Source of the DNA: a virus
IMG/VR virus record: IMGVR_UViG_3300020428_001737
Coordinates: 1 to 45,586 of that record
Length of the DNA: 45,586 nt
Reading direction: 5' to 3' (one strand)
The translations under genes and the position numbers were made by a program. Under the pieces are notes generated by a model, which saw only the letters and a program-made list of their open reading frames with translations, was not told where the DNA came from and searched no databases. Shown here in pieces: positions 11,546 through 44,329 of this stretch (the first letter of the stretch is position 1; each line of letters starts with the position of its first letter).

Positions 11546-13231
11546 GTGGCTGTAGTACAAATATCAAGAATACAAGTAAGACGTGGACAAAAGAACGCCG
11601 GCTCAGGATTACCGCAATTATCTAGCGGTGAATTAGGCTGGGCGATTGATACGCGAGAACTTTACATTGGTAACGGAGCAGTAAGCGAAGGATCGCCAGC
11701 AGTAGGTAATTCAAAAGTGTTAACAGAACATGACGACCTTTTTACTCTTGCAGGCCAGTATAGCTATAGAAAAAACGATGCATACATTGTAACAGGTGTA
11801 ACATCAGGATCTCCTACAACAAGAACACTACAAGATAGATTAGATGACGTAGTAAGTGCAAGAAGTTTTGGACTTACAGGACAAAGTAGCCAAGACGCTA
11901 CTGTAAAACTACAACAAGCAATTGATCAACTTTACTTAAATGATGCAACTAAAGGCGGCGTAGGTTCAGATGTTACTGTACATAGTAATGCTCCTATCTT
12001 AAACTTAGAGCCAGGGGAATACACTATTACAGATACAATTTATATACCCCCATTTGCACATATTAAAGGTGCAGGTAAAGGTAGAACAATAATAAACAGT
12101 ACAGCTTCTAATAAGCCTTTATTTCAAACTGTAAATAGTTCTAGCACACCAATATTAAAAGCATCAGATAGTACTAGTACATTTAATAATCAAGCAAGAA
12201 ACATTTCTATTGAAGGATTAACACTTAGCACAGTAAACAATAATAAAGCATTGGTATTACAAAGTTGTCGTGATAGTGATTTTAGAGACATAGAAATTAA
12301 AGGACCTTGGACTATAGGTAATAGCATTGATGCTGACAGTGTTTCGTCGTCAGCTAGTAATGATGTAGCAGTACTTTTAAATAGCCTTAGTGGTGCAGTT
12401 GAAAGTTCAAAAAATAATTTTTATAATTTAACTATACAAGGCTTTGCTTATGGTATACTTTCAAACTATGATATTAACGATAACATAATTGATGCGTGTA
12501 CATTTGATACATGCGGATATGGAGTTGCATTTGGTTTAGATATGACTCTTGGAGCACCTGCACTAGGACAGTCAACAGGACCACATAACTGTATTATTTC
12601 TAATAATAAATTTACAAATATTGAAAGACAAGGTATTATTGTAGAAAATGGTACGTTCAACAAGAGCGAAAACAATAGATTTAGTTTAGTAGGTAACCAA
12701 GGCGGTTCAGAAGGACAGCCAGTATACAGTATTATAAAATACGAAAAGAGCGGGAATGAGTCAGTAGGCGACCATTTCACAAGAACAGCTGCTCTTTCTT
12801 ATAACCAAGCCTATATTAATTCAGTTCCTTACATTCCAGAAGTCCAAGGACCATCTGTGTTTGATTGGGGATTTGAACAAAAAATTAGTATTACGTCAGG
12901 GTCTGCTTTAACTATATTTAGACTTCCTGGTGTTATTAATCAGAGCTTTGAGATAGACTACTTAATGGTCAGTAATAGCTACGAACTTACTAGATCAGGT
13001 AAAGCGATTGTCAATGTTGACTCACGTGGATTGAAAGTTGAGTTTTCGGACGAATTTTCTTTTACAGGAGACGATTTATATCTTGACAAAATTATATTAG
13101 ATGCTACAATAAGTGATGCTAATGGAGATGCAACTAATGATACAATCGTGATACGAAGTACAAGTACAATGCCAGGTGATGATAACACTGAAATGAAGTT
13201 TAAAGTTAGAGTAAAACAAACTGACATTTAA
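11546..13231 (+). CDS. tail fibre or tailspike with beta-helix
   Basis: The 561-residue protein starts at GTG 11546. Its N terminus (ISRIQVRRGQK...LSSGELGWAIDTRELYIGNG) is the phage tail-fibre N-terminal module found in structural proteins of many marine phages. The middle (about residues 130-420) is a right-handed parallel beta-helix of pectate-lyase type, with NISIEGLTL, SNNKFTNI and ENNRFSL coils. It is probably a receptor-binding or polysaccharide-degrading spike on the virion. No catalytic residues can be assigned. Confidence 0.85.
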   Translation: MAVVQISRIQVRRGQKNAGSGLPQLSSGELGWAIDTRELYIGNGAVSEGSPAVGNSKVLTEHDDLFTLAGQYSYRKNDAYIVTGVTSGSPTTRTLQDRLDDVVSARSFGLTGQSSQDATVKLQQAIDQLYLNDATKGGVGSDVTVHSNAPILNLEPGEYTITDTIYIPPFAHIKGAGKGRTIINSTASNKPLFQTVNSSSTPILKASDSTSTFNNQARNISIEGLTLSTVNNNKALVLQSCRDSDFRDIEIKGPWTIGNSIDADSVSSSASNDVAVLLNSLSGAVESSKNNFYNLTIQGFAYGILSNYDINDNIIDACTFDTCGYGVAFGLDMTLGAPALGQSTGPHNCIISNNKFTNIERQGIIVENGTFNKSENNRFSLVGNQGGSEGQPVYSIIKYEKSGNESVGDHFTRTAALSYNQAYINSVPYIPEVQGPSVFDWGFEQKISITSGSALTIFRLPGVINQSFEIDYLMVSNSYELTRSGKAIVNVDSRGLKVEFSDEFSFTGDDLYLDKIILDATISDANGDATNDTIVIRSTSTMPGDDNTEMKFKVRVKQTDI

Positions 13232-13653
13232 TGCAAGGTAAAGATTACGAGTCACGATTAGCCGAATGGAGTTCTTTTAGAGATACTCTTGAAAGCTCAA
13301 CAAATCCGTTTCAGGATTTAATTCATTTTTATATGCACGTTCCGTTAGTAAGCATACATACGGATCCTTGGAATCAAAAGATTTGGCCGGATCCGTGGGA
13401 ATTAATTTTGGAGAATCAATACTGTTCGTTTTGTAAAATACTAGGATACTATTACACATTGGCATTAACTGAAAGGTTTTTAGATAGTCAATTTGAGATA
13501 CATATTTCTATAGACCACGAACAATCGGAGACTTATTATATGTTAAAAGTAGATGACACAGTACTAGGATATAAGAACACTCCGTTACTATACGACAATT
13601 GGCCTTCATCGCTTGTTTCACAGAAGAGTTACACGATGACGGGTCTCCAATAA
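13231..13653 (+). CDS. hypothetical protein after the tailspike
   Basis: The 140-residue protein starts at the ATG overlapping the tailspike stop. It is rich in Trp, Tyr and Phe (DPWNQKIWPDPWELILE) with no membrane segment. Translational coupling to the spike suggests a fibre-assembly or adhesion partner, but the sequence is not recognised. Confidence 0.65.
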   Translation: MQGKDYESRLAEWSSFRDTLESSTNPFQDLIHFYMHVPLVSIHTDPWNQKIWPDPWELILENQYCSFCKILGYYYTLALTERFLDSQFEIHISIDHEQSETYYMLKVDDTVLGYKNTPLLYDNWPSSLVSQKSYTMTGLQ

Positions 13654-13656
13654 ATA
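13649..13656 (+). promoter_or_regulatory. possible late-type box before nrdA
   Basis: AATAAATA spans the stop codon of the previous gene. Ribonucleotide reductase is usually early or middle in T4-like phages, so the box may be fortuitous; no sigma70-type promoter is seen directly upstream. Confidence 0.3.
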
Positions 13657-13685
13657 CACACAAATAATAGGAAAAGGAAATGTAT

Positions 13686-15995
13686 ATGTCAAACGGGATT
13701 AATATTAGTATCGTCAAACGTGACGGTGCAAAAGAGCCACTCAACATTGATAAAATACACAAGGTAGTTGAGTTTGCTTGTGAAGATTTAACTGGTGTAA
13801 GTTCATCACAAATTGAAATGAATGCTAACATTCAGTTTTATGATGAAATGAGCACAAAGGAGATTCAAGAAATATTAATCAAAAGTGCAAATGATTTAAT
13901 TGGATTAGATGCACCAAATTATCAATATGCCGCGGCACGTTTGTTGTTGTACGGAGTATATAAAGAAGTGTTTGGACAATATGATTCTGTACCTTTAGAA
14001 GATATTATTAATCAAAATATAGAACGTGGAGTGTACGATCCTGAGATTTTAAAAAAGTATACTTCAGAAGAATTAAAAAAATTAGATTCAATTATTAAAC
14101 ACGATAGAGATGAGAATTTTACATATGCAGGCCTACGTCAAGTAGTAGACAAGTATTTGTGTCAAGATAGAAGTAGTGGAGAACTGTTTGAGTCTCCACA
14201 GTACATGTACATGATGATCGCAGCAACACTATTCGCTAACTATCCCGCAGAAACACGTATGCAGTACGTAAGGAGATATTATGATGCGACCTCACTTTTT
14301 AAAATCAACATACCAACCCCAGTCATGGCAGGAGTCAGGACCCCTGTTAAACAGTTTGCAAGTTGCGTTCTCGTTGACAGCGATGATACTTTGGATAGCA
14401 TTTTTGCTTCTGATATGTCTATTGGGCGTTATACTGCTCAACGTGCTGGTATTGGTATCAACGCTGGGAGAATTCGTGGAGTCAATGCGAAGATACGTGG
14501 CGGAGAAGTGGCGCACACTGGTATTGTTCCTTTCTTAAAAAAGTTTGAAGCAACCGTAAGGTGTTGCACACAAAATGGGGTACGTGGTGGTAGTGCTACA
14601 ACCCATTTCCCTATATGGCATCAAGAGATTGAAGACATCCTTGTGCTAAAAAATAACAAAGGTACCGAAGATAATCGTGTACGTAAGTTAGATTATTCAA
14701 TTCAGCTTAATAAAACTATGTATGAAAGACTTTTGTCCGGCGGCGATATAACTCTTTTCTCACCACATGATGTTCCGGGATTATACGAAGCATACTTTGG
14801 TGATTCAACAGAGTTTCAAGAGCTTTATGAAAAGTATGAAAGAGCATATTCAATTAAAAAGAAAACTATTCCCGCTATGGAGTTGTTTTCGGCATTAATT
14901 AAAGAACGTGCTGAAACAGGACGTATCTATATTATGAATGTTGATCATTGTAATACACACAGTTCGTTCAAAGACAAAGTATATATGAGTAACTTGTGTC
15001 AAGAGATTACATTACCAACTAAGCCACTTACTCATATCGATGATGAAGAAGGTGAAATTGCATTATGTATTCTAAGTGCAATTAACGTAGGTATTTTAAA
15101 AAATTTAGATGACTTAGAGCCGTTATGTGAACTAGCAGTAAGAGCATTAGAAGAAATTATTGATTATCAATCCTATCCTATTAAAGCGGCAGAGATTAGT
15201 ACAAAAGCAAGACGCAGTTTAGGTATAGGATATATAGGCTTAGCACACTATCTAGCAAAGCATAAGGTCACGTATAACGAACAATCTGCGTTCAAGCTAG
15301 TACATGAGCTTACTGAAGCGTTTCAATACTACCTATTAAAAGCCAGCAACATTTTAGCACAAGAGAGAGGTCCTTGTGAATACTTTGAAAGAACTAAATA
15401 TGCGGACAGTATATTACCTATTGACACTTATAAAAGTGACGTAGATGATATTGTAAAACCGGAGTATAAACTTGATTGGTCTAGTTTACGTAAGAGCATT
15501 GGAACACATGGGCTTCGACACTCGACGTTGTCCGCACAGATGCCATCAGAGAGCAGTTCTGTTGTGTCAAACGCAACAAATGGTATCGAAGCACCTAGAG
15601 GATACTTGTCCATTAAGAAGTCAAAGAAAGGGCCTCTTAAGCAGATTGTTCCGCAGTATACTACGCTGAAGAATCATTATAGTTTACTTTGGGAGTTACC
15701 AAGTAACGAAGGTTACATAAAAATTGTTGCAGTAATGCAAAAGTTTTTTGATCAAGCAATTAGTGGCAATTGGTCATACAACCCAACACAATATGAGGAC
15801 AATGAAGTTCCTATGAGTGTTATGATACAGGATATGCTAAACACATATAAGTATGGTTGGAAAACAAGTTATTATCAAAACACTTATGATTATAAGAGTG
15901 ACGATGATATTGAAGATGAAACAGAAACAGTACAATTAGAGTTGCCGCAGGAAGAACTTGACGATGACGAAATGTGCGATGCATGTGCAATATAA
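13686..15995 (+). CDS. nrdA: ribonucleoside-diphosphate reductase class Ia, alpha subunit
   Basis: The 769-residue protein reduces NDPs to dNDPs with NrdB. An N-terminal ATP-cone (ISIVKRDGAKEPLNIDKIHK) provides allosteric control. The redox Cys in FASCVLVDSDDTLDSI, the Asn-Cys-Glu catalytic set in SNLCQEITLPTKPL, the second redox Cys in IALCILSAINVG and the Tyr pair in KTSYYQNTYD match E. coli NrdA. The C terminus ends CDACAI, the shuttle cysteines that glutaredoxin reduces. ATG 13686 with AAGGAA 7 nt upstream is preferred over ATG 13680. The order nrdA-nrdB-glutaredoxin follows directly. Confidence 0.97.
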   Translation: MSNGINISIVKRDGAKEPLNIDKIHKVVEFACEDLTGVSSSQIEMNANIQFYDEMSTKEIQEILIKSANDLIGLDAPNYQYAAARLLLYGVYKEVFGQYDSVPLEDIINQNIERGVYDPEILKKYTSEELKKLDSIIKHDRDENFTYAGLRQVVDKYLCQDRSSGELFESPQYMYMMIAATLFANYPAETRMQYVRRYYDATSLFKINIPTPVMAGVRTPVKQFASCVLVDSDDTLDSIFASDMSIGRYTAQRAGIGINAGRIRGVNAKIRGGEVAHTGIVPFLKKFEATVRCCTQNGVRGGSATTHFPIWHQEIEDILVLKNNKGTEDNRVRKLDYSIQLNKTMYERLLSGGDITLFSPHDVPGLYEAYFGDSTEFQELYEKYERAYSIKKKTIPAMELFSALIKERAETGRIYIMNVDHCNTHSSFKDKVYMSNLCQEITLPTKPLTHIDDEEGEIALCILSAINVGILKNLDDLEPLCELAVRALEEIIDYQSYPIKAAEISTKARRSLGIGYIGLAHYLAKHKVTYNEQSAFKLVHELTEAFQYYLLKASNILAQERGPCEYFERTKYADSILPIDTYKSDVDDIVKPEYKLDWSSLRKSIGTHGLRHSTLSAQMPSESSSVVSNATNGIEAPRGYLSIKKSKKGPLKQIVPQYTTLKNHYSLLWELPSNEGYIKIVAVMQKFFDQAISGNWSYNPTQYEDNEVPMSVMIQDMLNTYKYGWKTSYYQNTYDYKSDDDIEDETETVQLELPQEELDDDEMCDACAI

Positions 15996-16007
15996 GGATT
16001 TAAAGAA

Positions 16008-17111
16008 ATGGCAAAAACAGTATTCAATCGTGAAAATGTAGATTTCACAAAACAGAACATGTTCTTCGGAGAAGATCAAAATACACAAAGATATGACGTA
16101 TTTAAATTTCCTGTATTCGACAAACTTAATGCAACAATGTTGGGTTATTTTTGGAGACCAGAAGAAGTTAGTTTACAAAAAGATAGAGCAGACTTTGCAC
16201 AGTTTCGTCCAGAACAGAAACATATTTTTACAAGTAACCTAAAATATCAAACACTATTAGATAGTGTGCAAGGACGTGGTCCTTGTTTAGCGTTCTTACC
16301 ACATGTATCAATTCCAGAGCTAGAAGGCTGTATTGTTACTTGGGACTTCTTTGAAACAATTCATTCACGTTCATATACACACATTATGAAAAATGTATAT
16401 CCTGATCCAAGTGAAGTTTTTGATACTATATTAGATGACAAAGAGATTCTAAAACGTGCAGTATCAGTTACTAAAAACTATGATAATTTTACAAATGCCG
16501 CAGATGAATTTACATATCTAAAAAAAGGCACAATGCGAGATGTTAAGAAGAAACTATTCTTAGCAATGATGAACGTTAATATATTAGAAGGTTTACGTTT
16601 TTACGTTTCATTTGCATGTACGTTTGCATTTGGAGAATTAAAGTTAATGGAAGGTAGTGCAAAAATTATTTCACTTATTGCTAGAGACGAAAGTCAACAT
16701 TTAGCATTAAGTACACACGTTCTAAAACATTGGATGCAAGGTAAAGATGATCCAGAGATGGTGAGTATTGCTAAAGAGTGTGAACAAGAAGTTTATGATA
16801 TGTGGGACCAATGTGTTGCAGAAGAAAAGGCTTGGGCAAAGCATTTGTTCAAAGATGGATCTATTATTGGATTGAACGAAGCATTACTTTACAAATATGT
16901 TGAGTACATTGCTAACCGTAGATTAAAAGCATTAGGTTATAAAATGCCATATGATCAAAGTACTGCAAACAATCCGTTACCGTGGACATCACACTGGCTT
17001 AATAGCAGTGGCCTACAAGTAGCCCCGCAAGAAACAGAAGTTGAAAGTTATATTGTTGGCGGAATTAAACAAGATGTCAAAACTGACAGCCTGTCAGGAT
17101 TTAAATTATAA
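16008..17111 (+). CDS. nrdB: ribonucleoside-diphosphate reductase class Ia, beta subunit
   Basis: The 367-residue small subunit holds the di-iron centre and tyrosyl radical. ETIHSRSYTHIM carries the Glu, His and radical Tyr of the E. coli-type motif, and ARDESQHLALS carries later iron ligands. Length and motifs are complete. It lies 12 nt after nrdA and 8 nt before the glutaredoxin gene, so the three form one operon for dNTP supply. Confidence 0.97.
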   Translation: MAKTVFNRENVDFTKQNMFFGEDQNTQRYDVFKFPVFDKLNATMLGYFWRPEEVSLQKDRADFAQFRPEQKHIFTSNLKYQTLLDSVQGRGPCLAFLPHVSIPELEGCIVTWDFFETIHSRSYTHIMKNVYPDPSEVFDTILDDKEILKRAVSVTKNYDNFTNAADEFTYLKKGTMRDVKKKLFLAMMNVNILEGLRFYVSFACTFAFGELKLMEGSAKIISLIARDESQHLALSTHVLKHWMQGKDDPEMVSIAKECEQEVYDMWDQCVAEEKAWAKHLFKDGSIIGLNEALLYKYVEYIANRRLKALGYKMPYDQSTANNPLPWTSHWLNSSGLQVAPQETEVESYIVGGIKQDVKTDSLSGFKL

Positions 17112-19817: not shown

Positions 19818-20279
19818 ATGACAATGCATTTAGCCCGAGGGCTTTCAACACTCAATACAAAGAAGCGTAAAAAAAAGCCGCTTAATCAAAAAGACATTGA
19901 GCGATATACTGTTCAATGGCGTCAACATAACAAACGTATGCGTCAACAACATATGCACAGTATGCAGTATGACACTGTAGAAGATTACATTGCATATTGT
20001 CGCGGCGAGTACAAGCCTAAGAATACACCTAAACCGCAACCGTACAAGCCTGATACATCTTGGAGAAATGATCAACCAAAAATTACTTCAGTAATGGAAG
20101 AAGCTATTAAAAATGGCACATGGGCTAAGATGAACGGTAGTGGTGCAGGAACCAAAAAAGAAACAATCAAATATACAGGTACTTTAATTAAAGGTATTGC
20201 AACCATGCATAAATCTAACGCAGTTCCAATTATAAATAAAGAACAGGCACAAGACATTGCAAGAATGAGGAGAGGATAA
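19818..20279 (+). CDS. conserved T4-like phage protein, hypothetical
   Basis: The 153-residue basic protein resembles a hypothetical conserved in T4-like cyanophages: it shares the MTMHL start and the C-terminal signature YTGTLIKGIATMHKSNAVPI followed by an Arg-rich end. AGGAG 7 nt upstream supports ATG 19818. The stop overlaps the next start. Function unknown, but the conservation and dedicated regulated promoter suggest that it matters early. Confidence 0.75.
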   Translation: MTMHLARGLSTLNTKKRKKKPLNQKDIERYTVQWRQHNKRMRQQHMHSMQYDTVEDYIAYCRGEYKPKNTPKPQPYKPDTSWRNDQPKITSVMEEAIKNGTWAKMNGSGAGTKKETIKYTGTLIKGIATMHKSNAVPIINKEQAQDIARMRRG

Positions 20280-20857
20280 TGCGACATTTATTTGTAGCAT
20301 TCGTAATACTAATTACAACTATTAGTACATCAAATGCAATTAGTGCATCGACATTAAGCACACAAAAGCCAGTTGAAGGAGAACTATTTTCTGAAACAGT
20401 TTATCCTGAACTTTACTGTATGGCTCTTAACATTTATCACGAGGCAAGAGCAGACCATATTGCAGGTCAATATGCAGTTGCTGATGTTGTTTTAAATCGA
20501 GTGGAAGATACTAGATATCCAAATTCTATTTGCGAAGTTATTAAACAAGCAAAATATAAAGAAAGTTGGAAAACCAAACAAGATCCAAACTTAGAAGACA
20601 ACAAACGAAAATATATTCCTATCCGTAACAAATGCCAATTTAGTTGGTGGTGTGATGGTAAAAGCGATCAAGCTCATGACGGTGACGCTTGGCGTAAAGC
20701 ACAAGAAATTGCTTATCGAATTGTTCAACAAAGAAAATATAGAGGTATCTCAGAAGGCTCTACTCATTATCATGCAACATATGTTTCACCTAGATGGGCT
20801 TCCGACTTTGACCTTGTTGGAAGAATAGGCGATCACATCTTTTATAGATGGCCTTAA
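20279..20857 (+). CDS. SleB-type cell wall hydrolase (endolysin)
   Basis: The 192-residue protein has an N-terminal signal or signal-arrest helix (residues about 1-20) and a Hydrolase_2/SleB domain: MALNIYHEARAD (catalytic Glu), GQYAVADVVLNRV, CQFSWWCDG and THYHATYVSPRWA. It would cleave peptidoglycan after export, so it is the likely endolysin. It overlaps the previous gene by 1 nt. A sec-type export route means that a separate holin need not release it. Confidence 0.88.
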   Translation: MRHLFVAFVILITTISTSNAISASTLSTQKPVEGELFSETVYPELYCMALNIYHEARADHIAGQYAVADVVLNRVEDTRYPNSICEVIKQAKYKESWKTKQDPNLEDNKRKYIPIRNKCQFSWWCDGKSDQAHDGDAWRKAQEIAYRIVQQRKYRGISEGSTHYHATYVSPRWASDFDLVGRIGDHIFYRWP

Positions 20858-25475: not shown

Positions 25476-26660
25476 ATGCGTATTGAAGAAGATATGAAAC
25501 TTGACTACAAGGATGTTCTTATTCGTCCAAAGCGTTCAACACTAGGCAGTCGTAAAGAAGTTAATTTAGAACGTGGTTATAAATTTAGAAACTACAAAAC
25601 AGAAACACCATTTCTTCCAGTCGATGAAGACTATCATTATCGTGGCGTTCCTATTATGGCAAGTAACATGGATGGTGTCGGCACATTTAAAATGGCTGAT
25701 AATTTAGCACTACAAGGTATAATGACTTGTCTAGTTAAAACTTATAGTGTTAACGAACTTGTAGGTTACTTTGATCAAGATGATAAGTCACATGATCCTG
25801 CAAGGACAGAATATGTTGCTATGAGCATTGGCATCACTGATAAAGACCATCAAAAATTTAGAGATGTATACGAACAAGTTGGCAATCAACTAAAGTTTGT
25901 TTGTATTGATGTAGCGAATGGTTACTCAGAAAGATTTGCTAACTTTGTAAAAGAATTTAGAACACATTATCCAGATATAGTCATCATAGCGGGTAATGTG
26001 GTAACAGGAGAGATGACAGAGGAGTTATTATTAAGTGGAGCAGATATTATTAAAGTGGGCATCGGTCCTGGGAGCGTTTGCACAACTCGTATTCAAACTG
26101 GCGTTGGTTATCCTCAGCTTAGTGCTGTTATTGAGTGTGCTGATGCTGCTCACGGCCTTGGTGGACATATCATTGCTGATGGAGGATGTACTTGCCCAGG
26201 TGATGTGGCTAAGGCATTCGCTGGAGGCGCAGATTTTGTAATGCTTGGCGGTATGCTTGCCGGACACAATGAAGGCGGCGGTGAAATAATTACCAAATAT
26301 TATAAGACTGGTGAGTGGGTTCGTAATGAACAATCTCTTGATGGTCAAACTCAATCAATAACTTGGGAAGATGGCATTGAAAGAAAGAAGTTTGTACAAT
26401 TTTACGGTATGAGTAGTAAAAGTGCAAATGACAAACACTTTAATGGACTTAAAGATTACCGTTCGTCAGAAGGGCGTGAAGTGCTGGTTCCTTATCGTGG
26501 ATCTGTAAAAGACACTGTACAAGACCTCTTAGGCGGTCTTAGAAGCACTTGTACGTATGCAGGTGCAATAGGACTAAAACAACTTAGTAAGTGTACTACA
26601 TTCGTAAGATGTACACAAACTCATAATCAAATTTATGAATCAACCACCATAGGTAAGTAA
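25476..26660 (+). CDS. guaC: GMP reductase
   Basis: The enzyme converts GMP to IMP and ammonia with NADPH, linking guanine to adenine nucleotide pools. The start [21 protein letters not shown] is nearly that of E. coli GuaC (split: [20 protein letters not shown]). [10 protein letters not shown] holds the catalytic Cys202, followed by [20 protein letters not shown] and [12 protein letters not shown]. At 394 residues it is longer than E. coli GuaC (about 347), with extra residues near 42-55 and near 283-310, the latter in the flap before FYGMSS. Unusual in a phage; the close likeness to bacterial GuaC suggests acquisition from a bacterium. Confidence 0.95.
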
Positions 26661-28953: not shown

Positions 28954-28985
28954 CTGGGGGAGCAATTTGCTCCCCCATTTATTAG
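28954..28985 (+). terminator. intrinsic terminator after hsp20
   Basis: GGGGGAGCAA and TTGCTCCCCC form a 10-bp GC-rich stem followed by ATTTATT. It separates hsp20 from clpS. Confidence 0.8.
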
Positions 28986-28993
28986 GAGAAAAA

Positions 28994-29299
28994 ATGAGTG
29001 ATTTAGCAGACGTTCAAATTGACGAAAAAATTAAAGTTGATAATTTATATCCTGAAAGATATAAAGTAGTATTCTTAAATGATAACGTTACTCCAATAGA
29101 CTTTGTAACAGAACTATTAACTTCTATATTCAAACATACCCAAGAAACAGCAAAAGCAATTACATATACCATTCATAACGAAGGCTCAGCCGTGGTTGGG
29201 ATATATACACATGAAATAGCTGAACAAAAAGGTATAGAAGCAACAAATACAAGTAGAGCAAATGGCTTTCCGTTAAAAGTTGCAGTAGAGAAGGAATAA
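28994..29299 (+). CDS. clpS: ClpS adaptor protein
   Basis: The 101-residue protein matches ClpS: YKVVFLNDNVTPIDFVTELL, HNEGSAVVGIYTHEIAEQK, and a final strand FPLKVAVEKE. ClpS docks on ClpA and delivers proteins with destabilising N-terminal residues to ClpAP. The start is ATG 28994 with TTAGGAG upstream. The phage also carries ClpP at 43.7 kb, so it may redirect host proteolysis. It abuts the heme oxygenase gene. Confidence 0.93.
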   Translation: MSDLADVQIDEKIKVDNLYPERYKVVFLNDNVTPIDFVTELLTSIFKHTQETAKAITYTIHNEGSAVVGIYTHEIAEQKGIEATNTSRANGFPLKVAVEKE

Positions 29300-29866
29300 A
29301 TGAGTTTAAAAGATCTAACATGGGAACATCACAAAGAAGCTGAAAGACAACAATTTGTAAAAGTACTAATGAGCGGAAACATAAATCCTGAATTGTACGC
29401 AACATACTTATGGAATCAGCATAAGCGTTACGACTTACTAGAAGCAATAGCTACACCATTAGGACTAATTGATCAAGATCTATTTGCAATTAGACGTAAA
29501 GATAGAATTGAAAAAGACTTCTTAGAACTTTGGAAAAAAGATCAACCACCTAAAATAGTAAAAGCCACTGAAGAATATATTATGCATATGAAAACAATTA
29601 TGGCAGATCCTGAAAAGGTAATGGCACATCTTTATGTTTTACATATGGGAGATTTAAGTGGTGGACAAATGATCAAACGTAAAGTTCCAGGCGAAGGTCG
29701 CATGTATCAGTTTGATAAAGATAAAAACGAATTGAAAGAATCTATTAGAGCAAAGATTCATGACGGAATGGCAGAAGAGGCAAAATTTGTTTTTTCTAAT
29801 AGTACAGATTTATTTAAAAATATTATGGAGTTAGACATTGAGCATTATATGGAACCGGTTAGTTGA
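29300..29866 (+). CDS. hemO: heme oxygenase
   Basis: The 188-residue protein opens heme to biliverdin, iron and CO. LTWEHHKEAERQQFV places the likely proximal His at residue 11, and YVLHMGDLSGGQMIKR matches the conserved distal-helix motif of heme oxygenases. It directly precedes a bilin reductase, with 29 nt of overlap, so biliverdin is probably passed on. Electrons would come from host ferredoxin, as no ferredoxin gene is in the window. Confidence 0.93.
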   Translation: MSLKDLTWEHHKEAERQQFVKVLMSGNINPELYATYLWNQHKRYDLLEAIATPLGLIDQDLFAIRRKDRIEKDFLELWKKDQPPKIVKATEEYIMHMKTIMADPEKVMAHLYVLHMGDLSGGQMIKRKVPGEGRMYQFDKDKNELKESIRAKIHDGMAEEAKFVFSNSTDLFKNIMELDIEHYMEPVS

Positions 29867-30542
29867 GTGTCAAGATGAAATCATTGATATCTTCAATGAA
29901 AATGCACTTGAAATTAATGAACCTGGATTAGATTATTTTAATCGACCTGATGGAGGTTGGATTAATCGTGTGTGGGCGAATGATCATATTAGAAGAGCCC
30001 ATATTGATGTAGTTGATACTAGAGATAGTAAGAAACTATGGATGATGCATGTATGTGTTTTTCCAGTACTAAACAATACTGGACCTATATATGGCTTTGA
30101 TGTTATAGCAGGTCCACGTAAAATGACAGGAGCATTTCATGACTTTAGTGCTAGTTCTGATCCTGACCATCCAATGATAGAAGGATACAAAGATGCTGTA
30201 AAAGACTTTGTACCTACAAAACAAAGAGAGCTACCTGAATGGGCTCAAAACATATTCACAGACAGCATGATTGCCGCTGGCAATGTAACTACAGAAGACG
30301 AAGCAGTTGCAATTATAGATCTTGCTATTAATAATTTACGTGCATACTTTTTAGAAATACCAGAATATACCGGCGAAGGAGATACCGCTCTAGTTGCGGC
30401 TTCACAAGATTATTACTGTCATAATCAGCAACAAAATCCACATACACCAAGAGTAATGAAAAGTCTTGGACTAGATGAAGCTGATGTTGACAAGTTCTGC
30501 ACAGACATGTTGTTTCCTAAATTAGATAAATATTCTATATAA
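29838..30542 (+). CDS. pcyX: ferredoxin-dependent bilin reductase, PcyA/PcyX type
   Basis: The 234-residue protein reduces biliverdin. It follows PcyA throughout: AHIDVV, MMHVCVFPV, IYGFDVIAGPRKM, QRELPEWAQNIFTDS, NVTTEDE and YCHNQQQNPHTPRV. His71 and Asp88 correspond to catalytic His88 and Asp105 of PcyA with the same spacing, while Asp57 stands where PcyA has Glu76, needed for D-ring vinyl reduction. This fits PcyX, a phage-derived enzyme reported from uncultured ocean phages to make phycoerythrobilin. TTG 29838 (GGAG 7 nt upstream, inside hemO) is the only good start. Confidence 0.88.
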   Translation: MSIIWNRLVECQDEIIDIFNENALEINEPGLDYFNRPDGGWINRVWANDHIRRAHIDVVDTRDSKKLWMMHVCVFPVLNNTGPIYGFDVIAGPRKMTGAFHDFSASSDPDHPMIEGYKDAVKDFVPTKQRELPEWAQNIFTDSMIAAGNVTTEDEAVAIIDLAINNLRAYFLEIPEYTGEGDTALVAASQDYYCHNQQQNPHTPRVMKSLGLDEADVDKFCTDMLFPKLDKYSI

Positions 30543-31655: not shown

Positions 31656-31663
31656 GATAAATA
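31656..31663 (+). promoter_or_regulatory. late-type promoter box for the curli cassette
   Basis: GATAAATA in the context GCGATAAATAC lies 50 nt before csgF. The same 10-base core (CGATAAATAC) precedes the CHASE2 cyclase, so both units may be switched on together late in infection. The 83 bases before the box hold no gene. Confidence 0.6.
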
Positions 31664-31713
31664 CAACTGAAAGCAAAATGGACGTAAATTTACGTTTATA
31701 TTCGGAGAGAAAT

Positions 31714-32205
31714 ATGAAGATGAAAGTCCTTGCATTCGTATCCATAGCAATGTTATATTCAGGTGCGGCTGCAACAGAAATTGTATGGGGTTTTAAGAAC
31801 CCTGCGTTCCATTATGGTAACGGGTACTCTACTCATGTGTTGAGTGTTGAGCAGTTACAGCATAATAGGAAAAAAGAATTAGAAGATTTTCGTAGAGCTG
31901 AAGCTCAAAGAGTTCAAAGAGAACTAGAAAATACAACTTTAAATAAATTTATTAAAAACTTAGAATCTAGGATTTATGCACAAATTTCCAAACAGATGGT
32001 AGATAGCATGTTTACAACTTGTCCAGCCGCAGATCAAGCTGCAGGTATATGTTCACAACCAACAACTGGAGTTGCAACTATAGAAGGTTCTACTATAACA
32101 TGGCTTAGAGATGCAGTAACAGGAAGTATCACTCTTACTATTATAGATGAGAACGGCTCAGTAACTGAAATTACTATCCCAGGAGCGGGAGAATTTGGAT
32201 TCTAA
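31714..32205 (+). CDS. csgF: curli assembly protein CsgF
   Basis: The 163-residue protein has a signal peptide (cleavage near AAA, residue about 21), then TEIVWGFKNPAFHYGNGYST, which matches the CsgF N terminus (FRNPNFGG type) that inserts into the CsgG pore, then a helix and a C-terminal sheet domain. The start is ATG 31714 with GGAGA upstream; the longer frame from 31678 is rejected. CsgF couples secretion through CsgG to nucleation at the surface. csgG follows 3 nt later. Confidence 0.88.
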   Translation: MKMKVLAFVSIAMLYSGAAATEIVWGFKNPAFHYGNGYSTHVLSVEQLQHNRKKELEDFRRAEAQRVQRELENTTLNKFIKNLESRIYAQISKQMVDSMFTTCPAADQAAGICSQPTTGVATIEGSTITWLRDAVTGSITLTIIDENGSVTEITIPGAGEFGF

Positions 32206-32208
32206 ATC

Positions 32209-33153
32209 ATGAAGCGTATTCTAGCATCATTAGTTTTTAGTTTACTAGCAACAGGGTGTGCTATTAGTCCCAATATGGTTGATTATGCTAAAGAAAGTAG
32301 TTGGGATCCTACTGTTCAAACAGCACCACTAAAAGATGCACTAATTTCAGTGCCAGAATTAGATGGCCCAGTTATTACAGTAGCAGTATATAGTTTTTCA
32401 GATAAAACAGGACAACGTAAACCTGCAAGTAATATTGCTAACCTAAGCTCAGCAGTTTCGCAAGGAAGTGAAGTATGGGTTATAAAAGCATTACAAGATG
32501 TAGGAAACGGAACATGGTTCCAAGTAGTGGAACGTGTAGGATTAGATAATTTGGTGAAGGAGCGACAGTTAATACGTTCCACAAGGGAGCAGTATGAAAA
32601 AACTTTACCAAAAGGCCCATTGCCTCTTAAACCTATGCTATTTGCAGGGTTATTGTTAGAGGGTGGCATTGTTGGTTATGATAGCAATGTTGCCACAGGA
32701 GGTGCTGGTGCAAGATATTTGGGTATAGCGGCTCAAACCGAATATCGAATTGATACTGTCACGGTGGTGATGAGATTAGTTTCTGTAAGTAGTGGAAAAG
32801 TACTAATGAGTATTGCTACTGAGAAGGTTATCGCATCGTCCCGTTCTGGAGCAGATGTATTCAAATTTTTAGATATGGGTACAAAGGCAGTTGAAGCAGA
32901 AACGGGTTATTCCGTTAACGAACCGGTCAATTACGCAGTAAGGGCAGCCATTGAGGCAGGCGTGATTGAGATTATAAACCAAGGAGAGAGAGATGGTCTT
33001 TGGAAATTTAAAAACAAACAATATATTGATAAAGAAGTGATCAAAAAGGATGCAGAAATTTACTGTGATTCTGATGATGAATGTGATCAACTATTGCTTG
33101 ATTTAGAAGATGACGAAGAGCTCTCCGATAAGAAGAGGGATAAAAATGAATAG
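32209..33153 (+). CDS. csgG: curli secretion channel lipoprotein CsgG
   Basis: The 314-residue protein forms a nonameric outer-membrane pore. Signal peptide with lipobox ATGC (Cys17); VAVYSFSDKTGQRKPASN, the family hallmark GYDSNVATGGAGARYLGI and GLWKFKN at the end all match E. coli CsgG. It has an additional acidic C-terminal tail of about 40 residues (DSDDECDQLLLDLEDDEE) not present in E. coli. It lies in an operon with csgF and the curlin genes. Related CsgG genes are known in a few marine phages such as pelagiphage HTVC008M (from memory). Confidence 0.95.
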   Translation: MKRILASLVFSLLATGCAISPNMVDYAKESSWDPTVQTAPLKDALISVPELDGPVITVAVYSFSDKTGQRKPASNIANLSSAVSQGSEVWVIKALQDVGNGTWFQVVERVGLDNLVKERQLIRSTREQYEKTLPKGPLPLKPMLFAGLLLEGGIVGYDSNVATGGAGARYLGIAAQTEYRIDTVTVVMRLVSVSSGKVLMSIATEKVIASSRSGADVFKFLDMGTKAVEAETGYSVNEPVNYAVRAAIEAGVIEIINQGERDGLWKFKNKQYIDKEVIKKDAEIYCDSDDECDQLLLDLEDDEELSDKKRDKNE

Positions 33154-33856
33154 AATGTACAAAGGACTTTTAACCTTAGTATTATTCAGCTTTGTTACTA
33201 TAGCGTCAGCAAATGATATCTACATCACACAGGTAGGTGATACTTTAGATTTAGATATTACTCAAGACGGTGTAGGCAACGTGATAGGTACAAGTGTAAC
33301 AGCAGTTGATTTAGATGGAGCCAGTATGACTTTTAATATTAGTCAAGTAGGTAATAATAACATTGTCTCTGCATTAATTAAAGGTACAAGTTATACAGGT
33401 ACTTGGTCTGCTACAGGAAACAGCAACGACATAGATTTCAAATGTTCTAGTACTTCAGCAGGAAACTGTGAAAGTGTAACAGCAACAATTGATATCGACG
33501 GCGATAGCACAAACTTAGATTTGTATATTGGTGAAAATGCTGATGCTGACAATACTAATGTTAATCTAGATATTGATGGTAATGGTAACATACTTGCTAT
33601 GAACTTAGATGGTACAGACTTAGCATTAACTTACACAATTGATAATAGTGTAGGAAGTGGTGCAAGTTTAAATACAGCTAACACTATTACAGTTGATGTT
33701 GATGATTCAGGTTTAACAGGTCAAAATCAAACAATGGCTTTAGTTGGTGGTGGAAACACTATTAACATTAACCAAAGTGGTACAGCACAAGACCAGACTA
33801 TTGATTTGAACATGCAAACCAGTGGTAGTACTATAGATATTACGCAAAGCGATTAA
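33146..33856 (+). CDS. curlin-repeat secreted protein, copy 1
   Basis: The 236-residue protein has a signal peptide (cleavage after ASA, about residue 23) followed by curlin-type repeats of about 20-22 residues: DIYITQVGDTLDLDITQDGVGN, MTFNISQVGNNN, INQSGTAQDQTIDLN, IDITQSD (the first split: DIYITQVGD, DLDITQDGVGN). Gln and Asn spacing fits CsgA/CsgB. It overlaps csgG by 8 nt and starts at ATG 33146 with AGAGGG. It is probably a CsgG substrate forming amyloid-like fibres or a nucleator. It has two Cys, in a CSSTSAGNC loop. Confidence 0.8.
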   Translation: MNRMYKGLLTLVLFSFVTIASANDIYITQVGDTLDLDITQDGVGNVIGTSVTAVDLDGASMTFNISQVGNNNIVSALIKGTSYTGTWSATGNSNDIDFKCSSTSAGNCESVTATIDIDGDSTNLDLYIGENADADNTNVNLDIDGNGNILAMNLDGTDLALTYTIDNSVGSGASLNTANTITVDVDDSGLTGQNQTMALVGGGNTININQSGTAQDQTIDLNMQTSGSTIDITQSD

Positions 33857-33858
33857 TT

Positions 33859-34980
33859 GTGAGGATATTGTTTTGTTTATTGATCGCGGCATTCTGGACT
33901 AATTTAGCGTTTGCAAATATAGGTCAGATAGCGGATCAAAAAGGAAATGGAGTTATAGAACGTGGCCAAGATGTAATTGGCTCTGGTGTTGGCACTCAAG
34001 TAGAGAGCTTAGACTCAGCAGTTACAACTAATGGAACCATGCGAATAGACTTCATAGATGAAACCCGTGTGGATATTACTGAACATAGTAAACTTATTAT
34101 TGATGAGTTTGTCTATGATCCAGCTAATGACATTGGTTCCTTATCTATAAAAGCGTCATTAGGAACAGTAAGGTACGCATCTGGACAAATTGCTAAAAAA
34201 TATAAGCAAAATGTCCAGATAAGAACACCTAGTGCTACTATTGGTGTACGTGGTACAGACTTTGTGATGGTAGTAGATGAAATTGGTGGAAGTTTAATTA
34301 CCTTGTTACCTAGTTGCGATACAAGTGGTCGTTGCTATGTTGGCGAAATTACAGTTGATACTGATGTAGGACAAGTTATACTTAATCAAGCATTCCAGGC
34401 AACATCAACAACTCATGGAGCACAACCTCCAAGTAAGCCACGAATTATAGATGTAGACGAAAATATGATTGATACACTTTTAATCCTACGTAAGAAATTA
34501 CCATGGGTTGAAGATGAAGAAGAATGGAAAAAGGCACAAAGACAAGCAGCAGATATATTAGGCATTGACTTTTTAGAATTTGATGGATTAGATATAGATG
34601 TGTGGCAAACTGATGAAGAAATTTGGCACACTGAACTTGATGAAACTGATTTTATGTTAGGTGATCTGTTAATAGATATTTTAGAACAGTTAAATATACA
34701 GTTAGCCGCACTATTTAAAGACGAGTTTGAAAAACAAAAAACTGACTTTGCAGGAGTAAGGTTAGGATTTGATTCAGCAACAGGTGTGCGAATAACAGAT
34801 GAAGATCCTCATTATGTATTTGAAAGATACGATAATGTAGGCACAAATAACGTAAAATTAAAGTTACATAAATCATCAGGCGGATATACTATTAATTTAC
34901 AACAAGGAGATTTTGAATTAATTGACTATAGAATTGGAAATGGTCCTAATAATATAGACATTTATCAAAGTAATAACTAA
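33859..34980 (+). CDS. FecR-domain protein with curlin-like tail
   Basis: The 373-residue protein starts at GTG 33859 and has a signal peptide (after AFA). Residues about 22-190 are a FecR domain: GSGVGTQVESLDSAVTTNGT, IDFIDETRVDITEHSKLII, SLGTVRYASGQIA, TPSATIGVRGTDFVM. The C-terminal end (YTINLQQGDFELIDYRIGNG, PNNIDIYQSNN) returns to a curlin-like pattern. FecR-domain proteins sense or anchor in the periplasm and often occur near CHASE2-cyclase genes in bacteria. It lies between two curlin genes with 2-nt and 1-nt junctions. Confidence 0.82.
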   Translation: MRILFCLLIAAFWTNLAFANIGQIADQKGNGVIERGQDVIGSGVGTQVESLDSAVTTNGTMRIDFIDETRVDITEHSKLIIDEFVYDPANDIGSLSIKASLGTVRYASGQIAKKYKQNVQIRTPSATIGVRGTDFVMVVDEIGGSLITLLPSCDTSGRCYVGEITVDTDVGQVILNQAFQATSTTHGAQPPSKPRIIDVDENMIDTLLILRKKLPWVEDEEEWKKAQRQAADILGIDFLEFDGLDIDVWQTDEEIWHTELDETDFMLGDLLIDILEQLNIQLAALFKDEFEKQKTDFAGVRLGFDSATGVRITDEDPHYVFERYDNVGTNNVKLKLHKSSGGYTINLQQGDFELIDYRIGNGPNNIDIYQSNN

Positions 34981-36014
34981 TGAAAATAACAGGAACACAT
35001 TTAGGAATCTTAGTAATGGTATTATACTTTAGTGCCCAAGCCTGTTACGCGAACGAAATTTACGTAAATCAAGTTGGCGATAATGTTGATATAGATATTG
35101 TGCAAGACGGTCAAAACAATAGTATCCGCAGTCTTAACACAACTAGTGGCGATGCAAGTATAAACGGAAGCAACAAAACATTTACAGTAACACAACAAGG
35201 TAACAATAATAGAGCAGGTTTCTGGACAAATGGTACTAACCAAGTGATGTCACTTATACAAGATGGTAATTCAAATGTTAGTGCAATGGACAACCACGGT
35301 AACAATAACGACATGTCAGTTGCTATTGATGGAGATAGTAATGTTACTCATACTGAAATAGGTAATGGTAGCGATATCAATAATCAAATTAGCGTAACTA
35401 TTAATGACGGCGATAGCAACACACTTTACACTGAAGTACAAAACGGCAGTACAAATAGTATAGACGTACAAGTACATAAACAAAGCAACAACGTCAATAG
35501 AGTTACAGTAAATGGTAGCAACAACAATGTAAAAGCATGGCAAGGCAAGCACGAAGATGGCTCAATAGATAATGATGAAACTGGCAACAATGATGTGTAT
35601 TGGATTGTTAGCGGTAGTAACAATAATCTTGCAAGTTATCAAACAGACGATAACGGCAATGGCGGACAGCATATTGCAAATTATGTTACAGGTGATAACA
35701 ACGATGTAAAACATACACAGCGTGGTGCAGGTGATCATAATGGTTTTGTAGAAATTACTGGTGACAATAATAATGTTGAAGTATTACAAAGAGGTAACAG
35801 TAACACGCAATTTGCAGATATAGTTTTAGATGACGGACACACAGTTGATGTATATCAAAGATATGGATCACACACTGCAAATATTGATTTAACAAACTCA
35901 GGCGGTGGCTACACATTAGATTTAGATCAAACTGCTAACACTAACCAAACATATAACATCACAGGTACATGTGCAACCGCTTACGGTTGCGGACTAATCA
36001 TCACCCAAAATTAA
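34980..36014 (+). CDS. curlin-repeat secreted protein, copy 2 (long)
   Basis: The 344-residue protein has a signal peptide (after CYA, about residue 24) and about ten 20-24-residue curlin-like repeats rich in Asn, Gly, Asp and Gln, for example EIYVNQVGDNVDIDIVQDG, TFTVTQQGNNNRAG, MSLIQDGNSNV, VEITGDNNNVEVLQRGNSN. CsgA of E. coli has five repeats, so this is about twice as long. The first repeat matches that of copy 1 (EIYVNQVGD and DIYITQVGD). It is probably secreted by the phage CsgG. The last gene of the cassette. Confidence 0.82.
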   Translation: MKITGTHLGILVMVLYFSAQACYANEIYVNQVGDNVDIDIVQDGQNNSIRSLNTTSGDASINGSNKTFTVTQQGNNNRAGFWTNGTNQVMSLIQDGNSNVSAMDNHGNNNDMSVAIDGDSNVTHTEIGNGSDINNQISVTINDGDSNTLYTEVQNGSTNSIDVQVHKQSNNVNRVTVNGSNNNVKAWQGKHEDGSIDNDETGNNDVYWIVSGSNNNLASYQTDDNGNGGQHIANYVTGDNNDVKHTQRGAGDHNGFVEITGDNNNVEVLQRGNSNTQFADIVLDDGHTVDVYQRYGSHTANIDLTNSGGGYTLDLDQTANTNQTYNITGTCATAYGCGLIITQN

Positions 36015-37327: not shown

Positions 37328-39379
37328 ATGACGAAGTATATCACACATTGGGCTGTTGCCTTTGTAACAGCTTTTATAATGATAAGTTTGCATTACAACG
37401 ATGGCTCTGTTGTGCAGACTGCTCGGCTGAAGCAATTTGACTTACTTCAAAACACTGATCAGTCAACCATATCCCAAGATATAGGTATCGTAACCATTGA
37501 CGAACCTGCCATTGAAAAGTACGGACAATGGCCTTGGAAGCGTGATGTTATTGCAGATATAATCTGGAATCTTCGCGAGGCAGGTGCTGGCATCATAGTG
37601 GTGCCTATACTCTTTTCAGAGCCTGATAGATTAGGCGGGGATATAGAGTTAGCCGAAGCACTTGCAGGTAACGGAGTAGTTATTGCTCAAACAGGAACTA
37701 CATCTGTTAATAAAAATCCTGTTCCTAGAGGCGTAGCCAAAATAGGAGATCCTTTGCCATATATGTTTGAATGGCCAGGGATGTTAGGACCAATCCCATT
37801 GCTAGGAGAAAATGCTGACGGTGTAGGTGTTTTAAACACTGCACCTGAAATAGACGGTGTTGTTCGACGTGTACCTCTCCTTATGCGTATTGGGGAGAAT
37901 ACGTATCCTACTTTAGCAATTGAAGTAATTAGAACAGCAACAGGTAACCCTAGTTATCAAGTAAAAGCAGGTCCCGGAGGCATTGAAGCAGTACGTGTTC
38001 CGGGTTACCCAATAATAAAAACAGATCCAAATGCACAGTTATGGTTAAGGTGGAATAAAGACTTTGATACTATAAGTGCGGCTGATAAAGATCAGTTCTG
38101 GATGTTTGAGGGTAAAACTGTAATTTTAGGAATTACAGCAGAAGGCATAGGCGGATTAATCGCTAGTCCAACAGGACCACAATATAATTATATACCAGCG
38201 GCAGTAACACTACAGACAGTTATGGATGGAGATCAAATTGAACGTCCTTACTGGGCATTCTTGGTGGAGTTGATCACAACAGCAGTCTTGGGCATAGCCC
38301 TTGTGCTTCTTGGACGATTTGCACCTTACTGGTTAGCTGGAGGAAGTATAGTTGTATTTGTGGGAGGACTCGCCTATGCTGTTTATTATGCTTGGACAAC
38401 ACATTTATATTTGTTAGACGCAACAATGCCAATAGTAACAGTTTTACTTGTTGGATTACATGCGGTGTTTAATAGATTTGTATTAGAATTTTTTGAAAAA
38501 CAAAAAATTAAGAAACAGTTTGCAGGATATGCATCACCAACAGTAGTACGTTTACTTCAAGAAAATCCTGCACTAATTAAAGAAGGTATGAAAAAAGAAG
38601 TTTCAATCTGCTTCTCAGATCTAAGAGGCTTTACACCACTAGGTGAATCATTTGGCGACGATGTAAAAGGCCTTACTAAAATAATGAATGGCTATATGGA
38701 TGCTATTACGCAACCTATACTTGACAGCGACGGAATGGTTATTAAATATATAGGTGATGCTAGTATGCACATACACAATGCACCTATAGATGATTCACAT
38801 CATCCTCGTACAGCCGTTGAAACAGGTTTAAATATGTTAAAAGCAGTGGAGAAGTTCAATGAAAAAATTACAAGTGAAGGCAGACCACCCGTTGGTATGG
38901 GTGCCGGTATTAATACTGGTCTTGGCTATCTTGGTGAAATGGGGTCAACGGCCAGACACAGTTATGATGTTCTCGGGGATGCTGTAAGCACAGCCGCTCG
39001 TATCGAAAGCAAGTGTAAAGAGTATGGTTGTGTTTTATTAATAGGCGATGCAACATATCAAGCAACTAAAGACGATTTCTTTTATTTAAAAATAGATGAC
39101 TTAGCAGTTAAAGGAAAAACTGTAGGTATTGGTATTTGGACAGTGTTAGATGGAATTAAACCTGCGTGGCGTACAGCAAAACGTAAGCACGAAGAAATGC
39201 ACAAGTTCTACAAAGAACAAAAGTTTGATGATGCGATTGCTAGTTGTGAATTATTGCACAATCATTTTGATGAAAAGATGGCGGCATACTACGATATGTG
39301 GATAGAGCGTTGTGAGTATATGAAAACGCAGAAGTTATCCAAAGACTGGAATGGCGTTTTTATTGCTACTACAAAATAA
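37328..39379 (+). CDS. CHASE2-domain transmembrane class III nucleotide cyclase
   Basis: The 683-residue protein has an N-terminal membrane helix, a periplasmic CHASE2 sensor domain (about 40-310: IGIVTIDEPAIEKYGQWPWKRD, VRRVPLLMRIG), three further helices (about 315-395), and a cytoplasmic class III cyclase domain (about 420-620). Metal-binding Asp431 (FSDLRGF) and Asp477 (KYIGDA) and Arg558 are kept. At the usual transition-state Asn (GDAVNxAAR) there is Ser554 (GDAVSTAARIES), so activity may be altered. Asp547 suggests ATP preference. It probably makes cAMP on a periplasmic cue, possibly from the FecR protein upstream. Confidence 0.9.
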   Translation: MTKYITHWAVAFVTAFIMISLHYNDGSVVQTARLKQFDLLQNTDQSTISQDIGIVTIDEPAIEKYGQWPWKRDVIADIIWNLREAGAGIIVVPILFSEPDRLGGDIELAEALAGNGVVIAQTGTTSVNKNPVPRGVAKIGDPLPYMFEWPGMLGPIPLLGENADGVGVLNTAPEIDGVVRRVPLLMRIGENTYPTLAIEVIRTATGNPSYQVKAGPGGIEAVRVPGYPIIKTDPNAQLWLRWNKDFDTISAADKDQFWMFEGKTVILGITAEGIGGLIASPTGPQYNYIPAAVTLQTVMDGDQIERPYWAFLVELITTAVLGIALVLLGRFAPYWLAGGSIVVFVGGLAYAVYYAWTTHLYLLDATMPIVTVLLVGLHAVFNRFVLEFFEKQKIKKQFAGYASPTVVRLLQENPALIKEGMKKEVSICFSDLRGFTPLGESFGDDVKGLTKIMNGYMDAITQPILDSDGMVIKYIGDASMHIHNAPIDDSHHPRTAVETGLNMLKAVEKFNEKITSEGRPPVGMGAGINTGLGYLGEMGSTARHSYDVLGDAVSTAARIESKCKEYGCVLLIGDATYQATKDDFFYLKIDDLAVKGKTVGIGIWTVLDGIKPAWRTAKRKHEEMHKFYKEQKFDDAIASCELLHNHFDEKMAAYYDMWIERCEYMKTQKLSKDWNGVFIATTK

Positions 39380-43549: not shown

Positions 43550-43752
43550 TGGAAATCAAAGAAGGTCCATACTTGGACGCATTATCCAAACCAACAAGCG
43601 GAGTAATTAAGCAAGAACTTATTACTTACCGTATCAAAGATGGAATGCTTAGGCAGGAAATTACAACAAGACAATTTTTAAAGGATGGAGACTATAATGA
43701 TGTTTCTACAGTTACTCCTTTAGTTAAAACAGAGATGACATCCAATGCCTAA
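43549..43752 (+). CDS. small hypothetical protein
   Basis: The 67-residue protein is polar, without membrane segments. Its start overlaps the previous stop and it overlaps clpP by 8 nt, so it is coupled to ClpP synthesis. Not recognised. Confidence 0.65.
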
Positions 43753-44329
43753 CTTAGTACCTGTAGTAATTGAAAAAGAAAGCCGTGGTGAAAGAAGCTA
43801 CGACATTTATAGCAGATTATTAAAAGATCGTATTATAATGTTAGACACAGATGTGAATAGTGCATCTGCTAGTTTAATTGTATCGCAAATGCTTTTCTTA
43901 GAAAGCCAAAACCCGGAGAAGACTATCAACTTTTATATTAATAGTCCGGGCGGATCTGTTACTGCTGGTATGAGTATCTACGATACTATGCAATTTATTA
44001 AAAGTCCAGTTAGTACTATTGTAATGGGACAAGCCGCTAGTATGGGCAGTTTCTTAGCCAGTGCAGGTGCAAAAGGTAAAAGAGTTGTCCTTCCTCACAG
44101 TAGGCATATGATTCATCAACCCCTTGGTGGAACACAAGGTCAAGCAAGTGACGTTGAAATTCAATATAAAGAACTACAGTATTGGAAAGAAACATTAACT
44201 AAACTGTACGAAAAGCATACAGGACAAAGTTATGCTACACTTGAAGCAGATATGGATAGAGATAACTTTATGAGTGCCAGCGAAGCAGTTAATTATGGCC
44301 TTGCAGATAAAATTATGGAGAGTAGATAA
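43745..44329 (+). CDS. clpP: ATP-dependent Clp protease proteolytic subunit
   Basis: The 194-residue serine peptidase has a complete triad: Ser99 ([15 protein letters not shown]), His124 ([11 protein letters not shown]) and Asp173 ([13 protein letters not shown]), with the same spacing as E. coli ClpP. It starts [20 protein letters not shown], like bacterial ClpP with a very short propeptide. It can form a ring with host ClpA/ClpX or mix with host ClpP. The phage's ClpS at 29 kb suggests control of N-degron proteolysis. It overlaps both neighbours. Confidence 0.96.

Follow-up and report, generated by a model that had tools for sequence, protein, structure and literature searches.

In bacterial curli operons, which encode type VIII secretion, genes for CsgF, CsgG and curlin subunits lie side by side. 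Zaragoza-Solas 2020 reported a phage curli cluster, for which sibling capture was proposed (PMC7029224). The complete module, including FecR, a cyclase and the two curlin genes, was described in Pelagibacter podo- and myophages by Wittmers 2022, who presented metatranscriptome evidence of its expression, assigned FecR as an iron-linked regulator and proposed defence against superinfection (PMC9599517). Buchholz 2022 suggested that the pore takes part in lysis and reported that Methylophilales phage Melnitz lacks csgA and csgB (PMC9004378). Since the GenBank record of Melnitz annotates two curlin-repeat genes, that absence does not hold. Here we analyzed a curli cassette in a 45,586-nucleotide (nt) stretch of viral DNA, IMG/VR record IMGVR_UViG_3300020428_001737 (the window; all positions, including those of junctions and open reading frames [ORFs], are numbered along this whole stretch).

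The cassette is of a kind already published, and the novelty implied by the original prediction, made from the letters of the window, is not upheld. Its remark that csgG genes had been noted in a few marine phages was right as far as it went but understated the case, as the full cassette has been published in pelagiphages of two families. In our reading, the phage encodes a type VIII (curli) secretion module that would build a curlin-like surface fibre; we put the probability of this reading at roughly 0.6.

The window carries a six-gene curli cassette

ORF calls placed five genes on the + strand in one tight operon between 31.7 and 36.0 kb. The first, csgF (31714 to 32205), encodes 163 amino acids (aa) from an ATG at 31714, in an ORF that opens at 31678, and begins with a Sec-type signal peptide (Pfam CsgF, E value 9.5e-12; phrog_35372, 2e-48). 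It is followed by csgG (32209 to 33153; 314 aa; Pfam CsgG, 3.1e-49), curlin 1 (33146 to 33856; 236 aa with a signal peptide), a FecR-domain gene with a GTG start (33859 to 34980; 373 aa; Pfam FecR, 8e-8) and curlin 2 (34980 to 36014; 344 aa, about 10 repeats). The junctions measure +3 (csgF/csgG), -8 (csgG/curlin 1), +2 (curlin 1/FecR) and -1 (FecR/curlin 2). The five-gene curli export cassette of the original prediction is therefore confirmed: the coordinates and the junction range of -8 to +3 agreed on re-checking, and the profile searches against Pfam were clear for CsgF, CsgG and FecR. A sixth gene that it had left out, on the + strand at 37328 to 39379, encodes a CHASE2 sensor joined to a class III nucleotide cyclase (Pfam CHASE2, 2.6e-38; cyclase, 5.1e-16) and belongs to the cassette as its downstream member.

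The order CsgF, CsgG, curlin, FecR, curlin, adenylate cyclase is that of the pelagiphage modules (PMC9599517, PMC7029224); all six genes are annotated in this order in the record of Melnitz, whose curlin 2 is 68% identical to that of the window, and the order is readable in Pelagibacter phage HTVC008M. There are also differences. Podophage modules are described as preceded by a histidine kinase, whereas the gene before csgF in the window (30556) had no convincing PHROGs or NCBIfam match. The glutamine riboswitch and tmRNA of Melnitz are absent from the window, in which a riboswitch search found none. Compared with bacterial curli operons, the cassette of the window lacks CsgE, has leucine at the CsgG position equivalent to F56 and has gained FecR and the CHASE2 cyclase.

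The cassette is conserved and under purifying selection

A CsgG scan of IMG/VR gave 72 loci, which together with Melnitz and HTVC008M made 74; many of the contigs are fragments, and each gene was scored where the contig was long enough. Among testable loci, csgF was present in 71/71, curlin 1 in 70/70, FecR in 64/64, curlin 2 in 60/62 and the cyclase in 41/42, with the same order kept across the 74. Related phages that carry csgG without the curlin genes were thus not seen, and the claim that the phage encodes both a channel and dedicated substrates is strongly supported. Curlin 2 was not found in L039 and L040; in L039, the slot (12959 to 14968) holds a gene for a protein of 669 aa that probably has a signal peptide and matched nothing in Pfam. 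The ratio of nonsynonymous to synonymous substitution rates (dN/dS; Nei-Gojobori, related phages) was mostly 0.05 to 0.25 for all six genes, with curlin 2 evolving fastest (up to 0.43); many synonymous distances were saturated, which makes these values rough. All six genes are under purifying selection.

In a scan of bacterial genome contigs with the CsgG profile, most matches came from Bacteroidetes and gammaproteobacteria. The cassette, whole or in part and with phage neighbours, was also present on contigs of metagenome-assembled genomes (MAGs) labelled as Pirellulales, Rhodobacteraceae, Saprospirales and Synechococcus (L076 to L080; L236 and L237 are further contigs from one of these MAGs). 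They were treated as phage because their neighbours are common with the phage loci, and are probably phage DNA binned with bacteria.

The pore protein retains a lipobox but has an altered constriction

A profile of the phage CsgG family recovered the solved E. coli CsgG at 1e-71. CsgG of the window has the lipobox LLATGC, typical of outer-membrane lipoproteins. At the position of E. coli CsgG F56, motif counts gave leucine in the window and in 30/38 phage clusters and phenylalanine in the other 8/38, whereas 78/79 bacterial sequences have phenylalanine or tyrosine there; as far as the open-access literature shows, this change at the aromatic clamp is a new observation. The acidic C-terminal extension, which had been singled out as an additional phage feature, is present in the window but varies in length and is absent in many relatives, so it is not general. 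CsgE was found neither in the window, as predicted, nor in two complete relatives (no match in 10 phage records, with a positive E. coli control); it has been reported absent from alphaproteobacterial curli modules as well (PMC9599517).

The two curlin-repeat proteins differ in their evolution

Both curlin-repeat proteins of the window scored below the Pfam cutoff (curlin 1, Curlin_rpt E value 0.022; curlin 2, 0.014). Orthologues in the corresponding slots were nevertheless clear; the curlin 2 orthologue of L004, for example, has five curlin repeats with a Pfam E value of 7.6e-23. The two sizes and signal peptides described in the original prediction are in agreement. For the repeats a stacked beta-solenoid had been expected. 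The structure model of curlin 2 was all beta with short repeats (predicted local distance difference test [pLDDT] 79, predicted template modelling score [pTM] 0.76), and residue periodicity lay at 11 to 13 and 22 to 24. A Foldseek comparison with the Protein Data Bank (PDB) gave no significant match (best E value 0.11); the top matches were mostly beta-helix proteins and, being nonsignificant, are suggestive only.

In relatives, curlin 2 has differing N-terminal regions ahead of the same kind of repeats. A PA14 domain occupies this position in HTVC008M (2.7e-6) and L073 (4e-10); the regions in L007, L009, L048 and L059 had no Pfam match. Curlin 2 of the window, unlike that of HTVC008M, has no PA14 or similar N-terminal domain. 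Judged by these sequences, curlin 1 is the conserved subunit and curlin 2 the variable, often domain-bearing one. PA14 is not mentioned by Wittmers 2022 (PMC9599517), and the open-access literature held nothing relevant on phage, curlin and PA14 together. As far as that literature shows, exchangeable N-terminal domains on a fast-evolving curlin 2 are new.

Curlin 2 of the window starts with the leader MKITGTHLGI (34980 to 35055), which is conserved at the protein level while silent positions vary. In 44 viral contigs (L244 to L286) this leader is found at the start of curlin-type genes, of CsgF genes or of separate small ORFs of 23 to 30 aa, and of no unrelated protein; in two of the contigs inspected the mini-ORF comes after a gene that resembles a capsid gene by eye. 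The leaders KDTPLLVLG and MKITGTHLG are reciprocal, CsgF having one and curlin 2 the other (L061 to L064, L067, L074, L075).

The FecR-domain protein is probably secreted and has a curlin-like tail

The FecR domain was matched in 32/32 aligned members, which have no other Pfam family in common, and the model of the window protein matched solved FecR/PupR-type domains (2.5e-4). In the members covered by a hydropathy scan there was at most an N-terminal hydrophobic segment, which fits a signal peptide, and none later; there was no cytoplasmic N-terminal anti-sigma part or membrane anchor. A match to Sigma70_r2 was absent from both the window and a 95.9-kb relative. The last 75 residues aligned with curlin C termini (profile-profile E value 1.1e-5, probability 82%), 70% of the tails scored above the 99th percentile of shuffles, and the model has beta strands at 303 to 370. 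The tail had been described as curlin-like; this is upheld by the profile alignment, but the resemblance is weak, with no Pfam curlin match in the 32 members. These results suggest that "FecR" is a secreted, curlin-tailed, fibre-related part and not a FecR-type regulator, a reading that is new as far as the open-access literature shows.

The FecR and CHASE2 genes resemble a separate signalling pair

In Campylobacterota, a CHASE2 cyclase is reported to be clustered with a FecR-domain outer-membrane protein (PMC9239204). We surveyed 385 alphaproteobacterial genomes, the class of G001 (Rhodobacteraceae), and found FecR and CHASE2 genes within 10 kb of each other on at least 29 contigs against about 1 expected; the pairs were matched by hand, which makes the count a lower bound, and the expectation is rough. 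While these pairs share with the phage cassette a FecR-domain protein beside a CHASE2 cyclase, their FecR domain lies in other, often very large proteins: nonphage FecR matches in the sample cover mainly profile positions 20 to 200, and the tail was matched only by phage contigs. Neither FecR nor the CHASE2 cyclase was near CsgG in the scanned nonphage loci (CsgG plus CsgF or curlin), although the phage-built hidden Markov models (HMMs) could overlook distant bacterial members of either family. Since FecR/CHASE2 pairs occur apart from curli and were not found near csgG in those loci, we infer a phage module in which a curli exporter is joined to an otherwise independent signalling pair; the occurrence of the alphaproteobacterial pairs apart from curli is likewise new as far as the open-access literature shows. 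At the motif position taken to hold the transition-state asparagine of the active site, pattern-based counts gave serine in the window and in 19 of the 25 phage cyclases whose motif could be read; HTVC008M has asparagine there, as do the bacterial homologues near FecR in which the motif was present.

A late-promoter-like site precedes csgF

The cassette had been called late expressed. A late-promoter-like site, GATAAATAC, lies upstream of csgF on the + strand at 31656 to 31664. An ATAAATA-containing site is near the csgF start in 16/38 phage clusters compared with 4.9% of random stretches, although relatedness among the clusters makes the probability inexact. Over the whole window, the core ATAAATA occurred no more often than in shuffled sequence. 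Late expression of the cassette is thus supported by the recurrence of the site at csgF, but not by any window-wide enrichment of its core.

Other genes of the window

Just before the cassette, at 29300 to 30542, a heme oxygenase gene lies beside a bilin reductase gene of the PcyA/PcyX kind, a pair also near the cassette in several relatives. Further genes encode Hsp20 (28481), a ClpS adaptor (28967 to 29299), an IMP dehydrogenase/GMP reductase-like protein (25476 to 26660; Pfam, 2.8e-71) and the large and small subunits of ribonucleotide reductase (13680 to 17111). A phrog_94 match at 43745 was set aside, the gene (43745 to 44329) being a ClpP protease by Pfam (1.2e-81). T4-type capsid protein Gp23 was absent from the window and the 95.9-kb relative, both possibly fragments.

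Proposed function and alternatives

In the proposed fibre module, both curlin-repeat proteins, along with the FecR-curlin protein, would leave the cytoplasm via host Sec, probably late in infection. The lipoprotein CsgG would form a ring in the outer membrane, with CsgF at the opening, and deliver curlin-like chains to the outside of the cell, where these could stack into beta-solenoid, amyloid-like fibres. It is very probable that the curlins are secreted via this CsgG. Because curlin 2 is variable and domain bearing, the fibre would most likely be a surface adhesive or display scaffold, which might, for example, hold neighbouring cells near the burst; we rate an adhesive or aggregating role at a little short of even odds. 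FecR would report fibre export to the CHASE2 cyclase. This is proposed because FecR and the cyclase resemble the curli-independent bacterial pair, and by that analogy a reporter role is tentative and rather unlikely. It is more doubtful still that phages gave FecR its curlin tail and so joined the exporter to the FecR/CHASE2 pair, with the cyclase sensing fibre export or contact and adjusting the infection, for example, the timing of lysis.

Several observations weigh against a fibre-building module. Melnitz cultures showed no clumping (PMC9004378), and CsgE was not found in the records searched. In the window and in 30/38 clusters, leucine replaces an aromatic residue that is almost invariant at the CsgG constriction, so the pore may handle its substrate unlike that of E. 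coli; serine in place of asparagine makes the activity of the cyclase unsure. Both replacements call for caution about E. coli-like behaviour. The curlin 2 model had no significant counterpart among solved structures, and the FecR tail resembles curlin weakly.

A curlin coat might instead shield the infected cell and block superinfection by other phages, without gathering hosts, as Wittmers 2022 proposed (PMC9599517). The fast evolution and domain exchange of curlin 2 would suit a surface in conflict. Yet PA14 domains more commonly serve binding than shielding, and late expression, if true, would come late for exclusion; such shielding is unlikely, though a serious contender. The pore might alternatively let the infected cell take up larger nutrients or cofactors, as was also proposed previously (PMC7029224, PMC9599517). 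Such a role would agree with the missing CsgE gate but would not account for CsgF, for the conserved and exported curlin-repeat proteins or for the domain exchange of curlin 2, and is highly doubtful.

The altered constriction of phage CsgG, together with the narrowing modelled for CsgG of Melnitz and the location of its gene close to other genes (PMC9004378), could point to CsgG/CsgF repurposed as a pinholin- or secretin-like pore for lysis timing, with the other genes incidental (Buchholz 2022). However, all testable loci have curlin-repeat genes after the pore gene, purifying selection acts on these curlin-repeat genes, CsgG retains its outer-membrane-type lipobox and the window encodes its own cell wall hydrolase (20279 to 20857), which makes a lysis pore very improbable. 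The assignment of FecR as an iron-linked regulator of the cassette (PMC9599517), acting as E. coli FecR does, draws on the FecR domain and its FecR/PupR-like fold. It is extremely unlikely, since in the members scanned the hydrophobic segment is N terminal only, which leaves the protein without a cytoplasmic anti-sigma part, the window has no match to sigma-70 region 2 and the members share FecR as their only Pfam family along with a curlin-like C-terminal tail.

If the fibre module is functional, planktonic hosts that according to published reports have no curli would carry an amyloid-type surface while infected, which would bear on aggregation, coinfection and recombination in the open ocean. 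The exported FecR, the domain exchange of curlin 2 and the separate FecR/CHASE2 pair are specific, testable predictions that would replace the published regulator reading.

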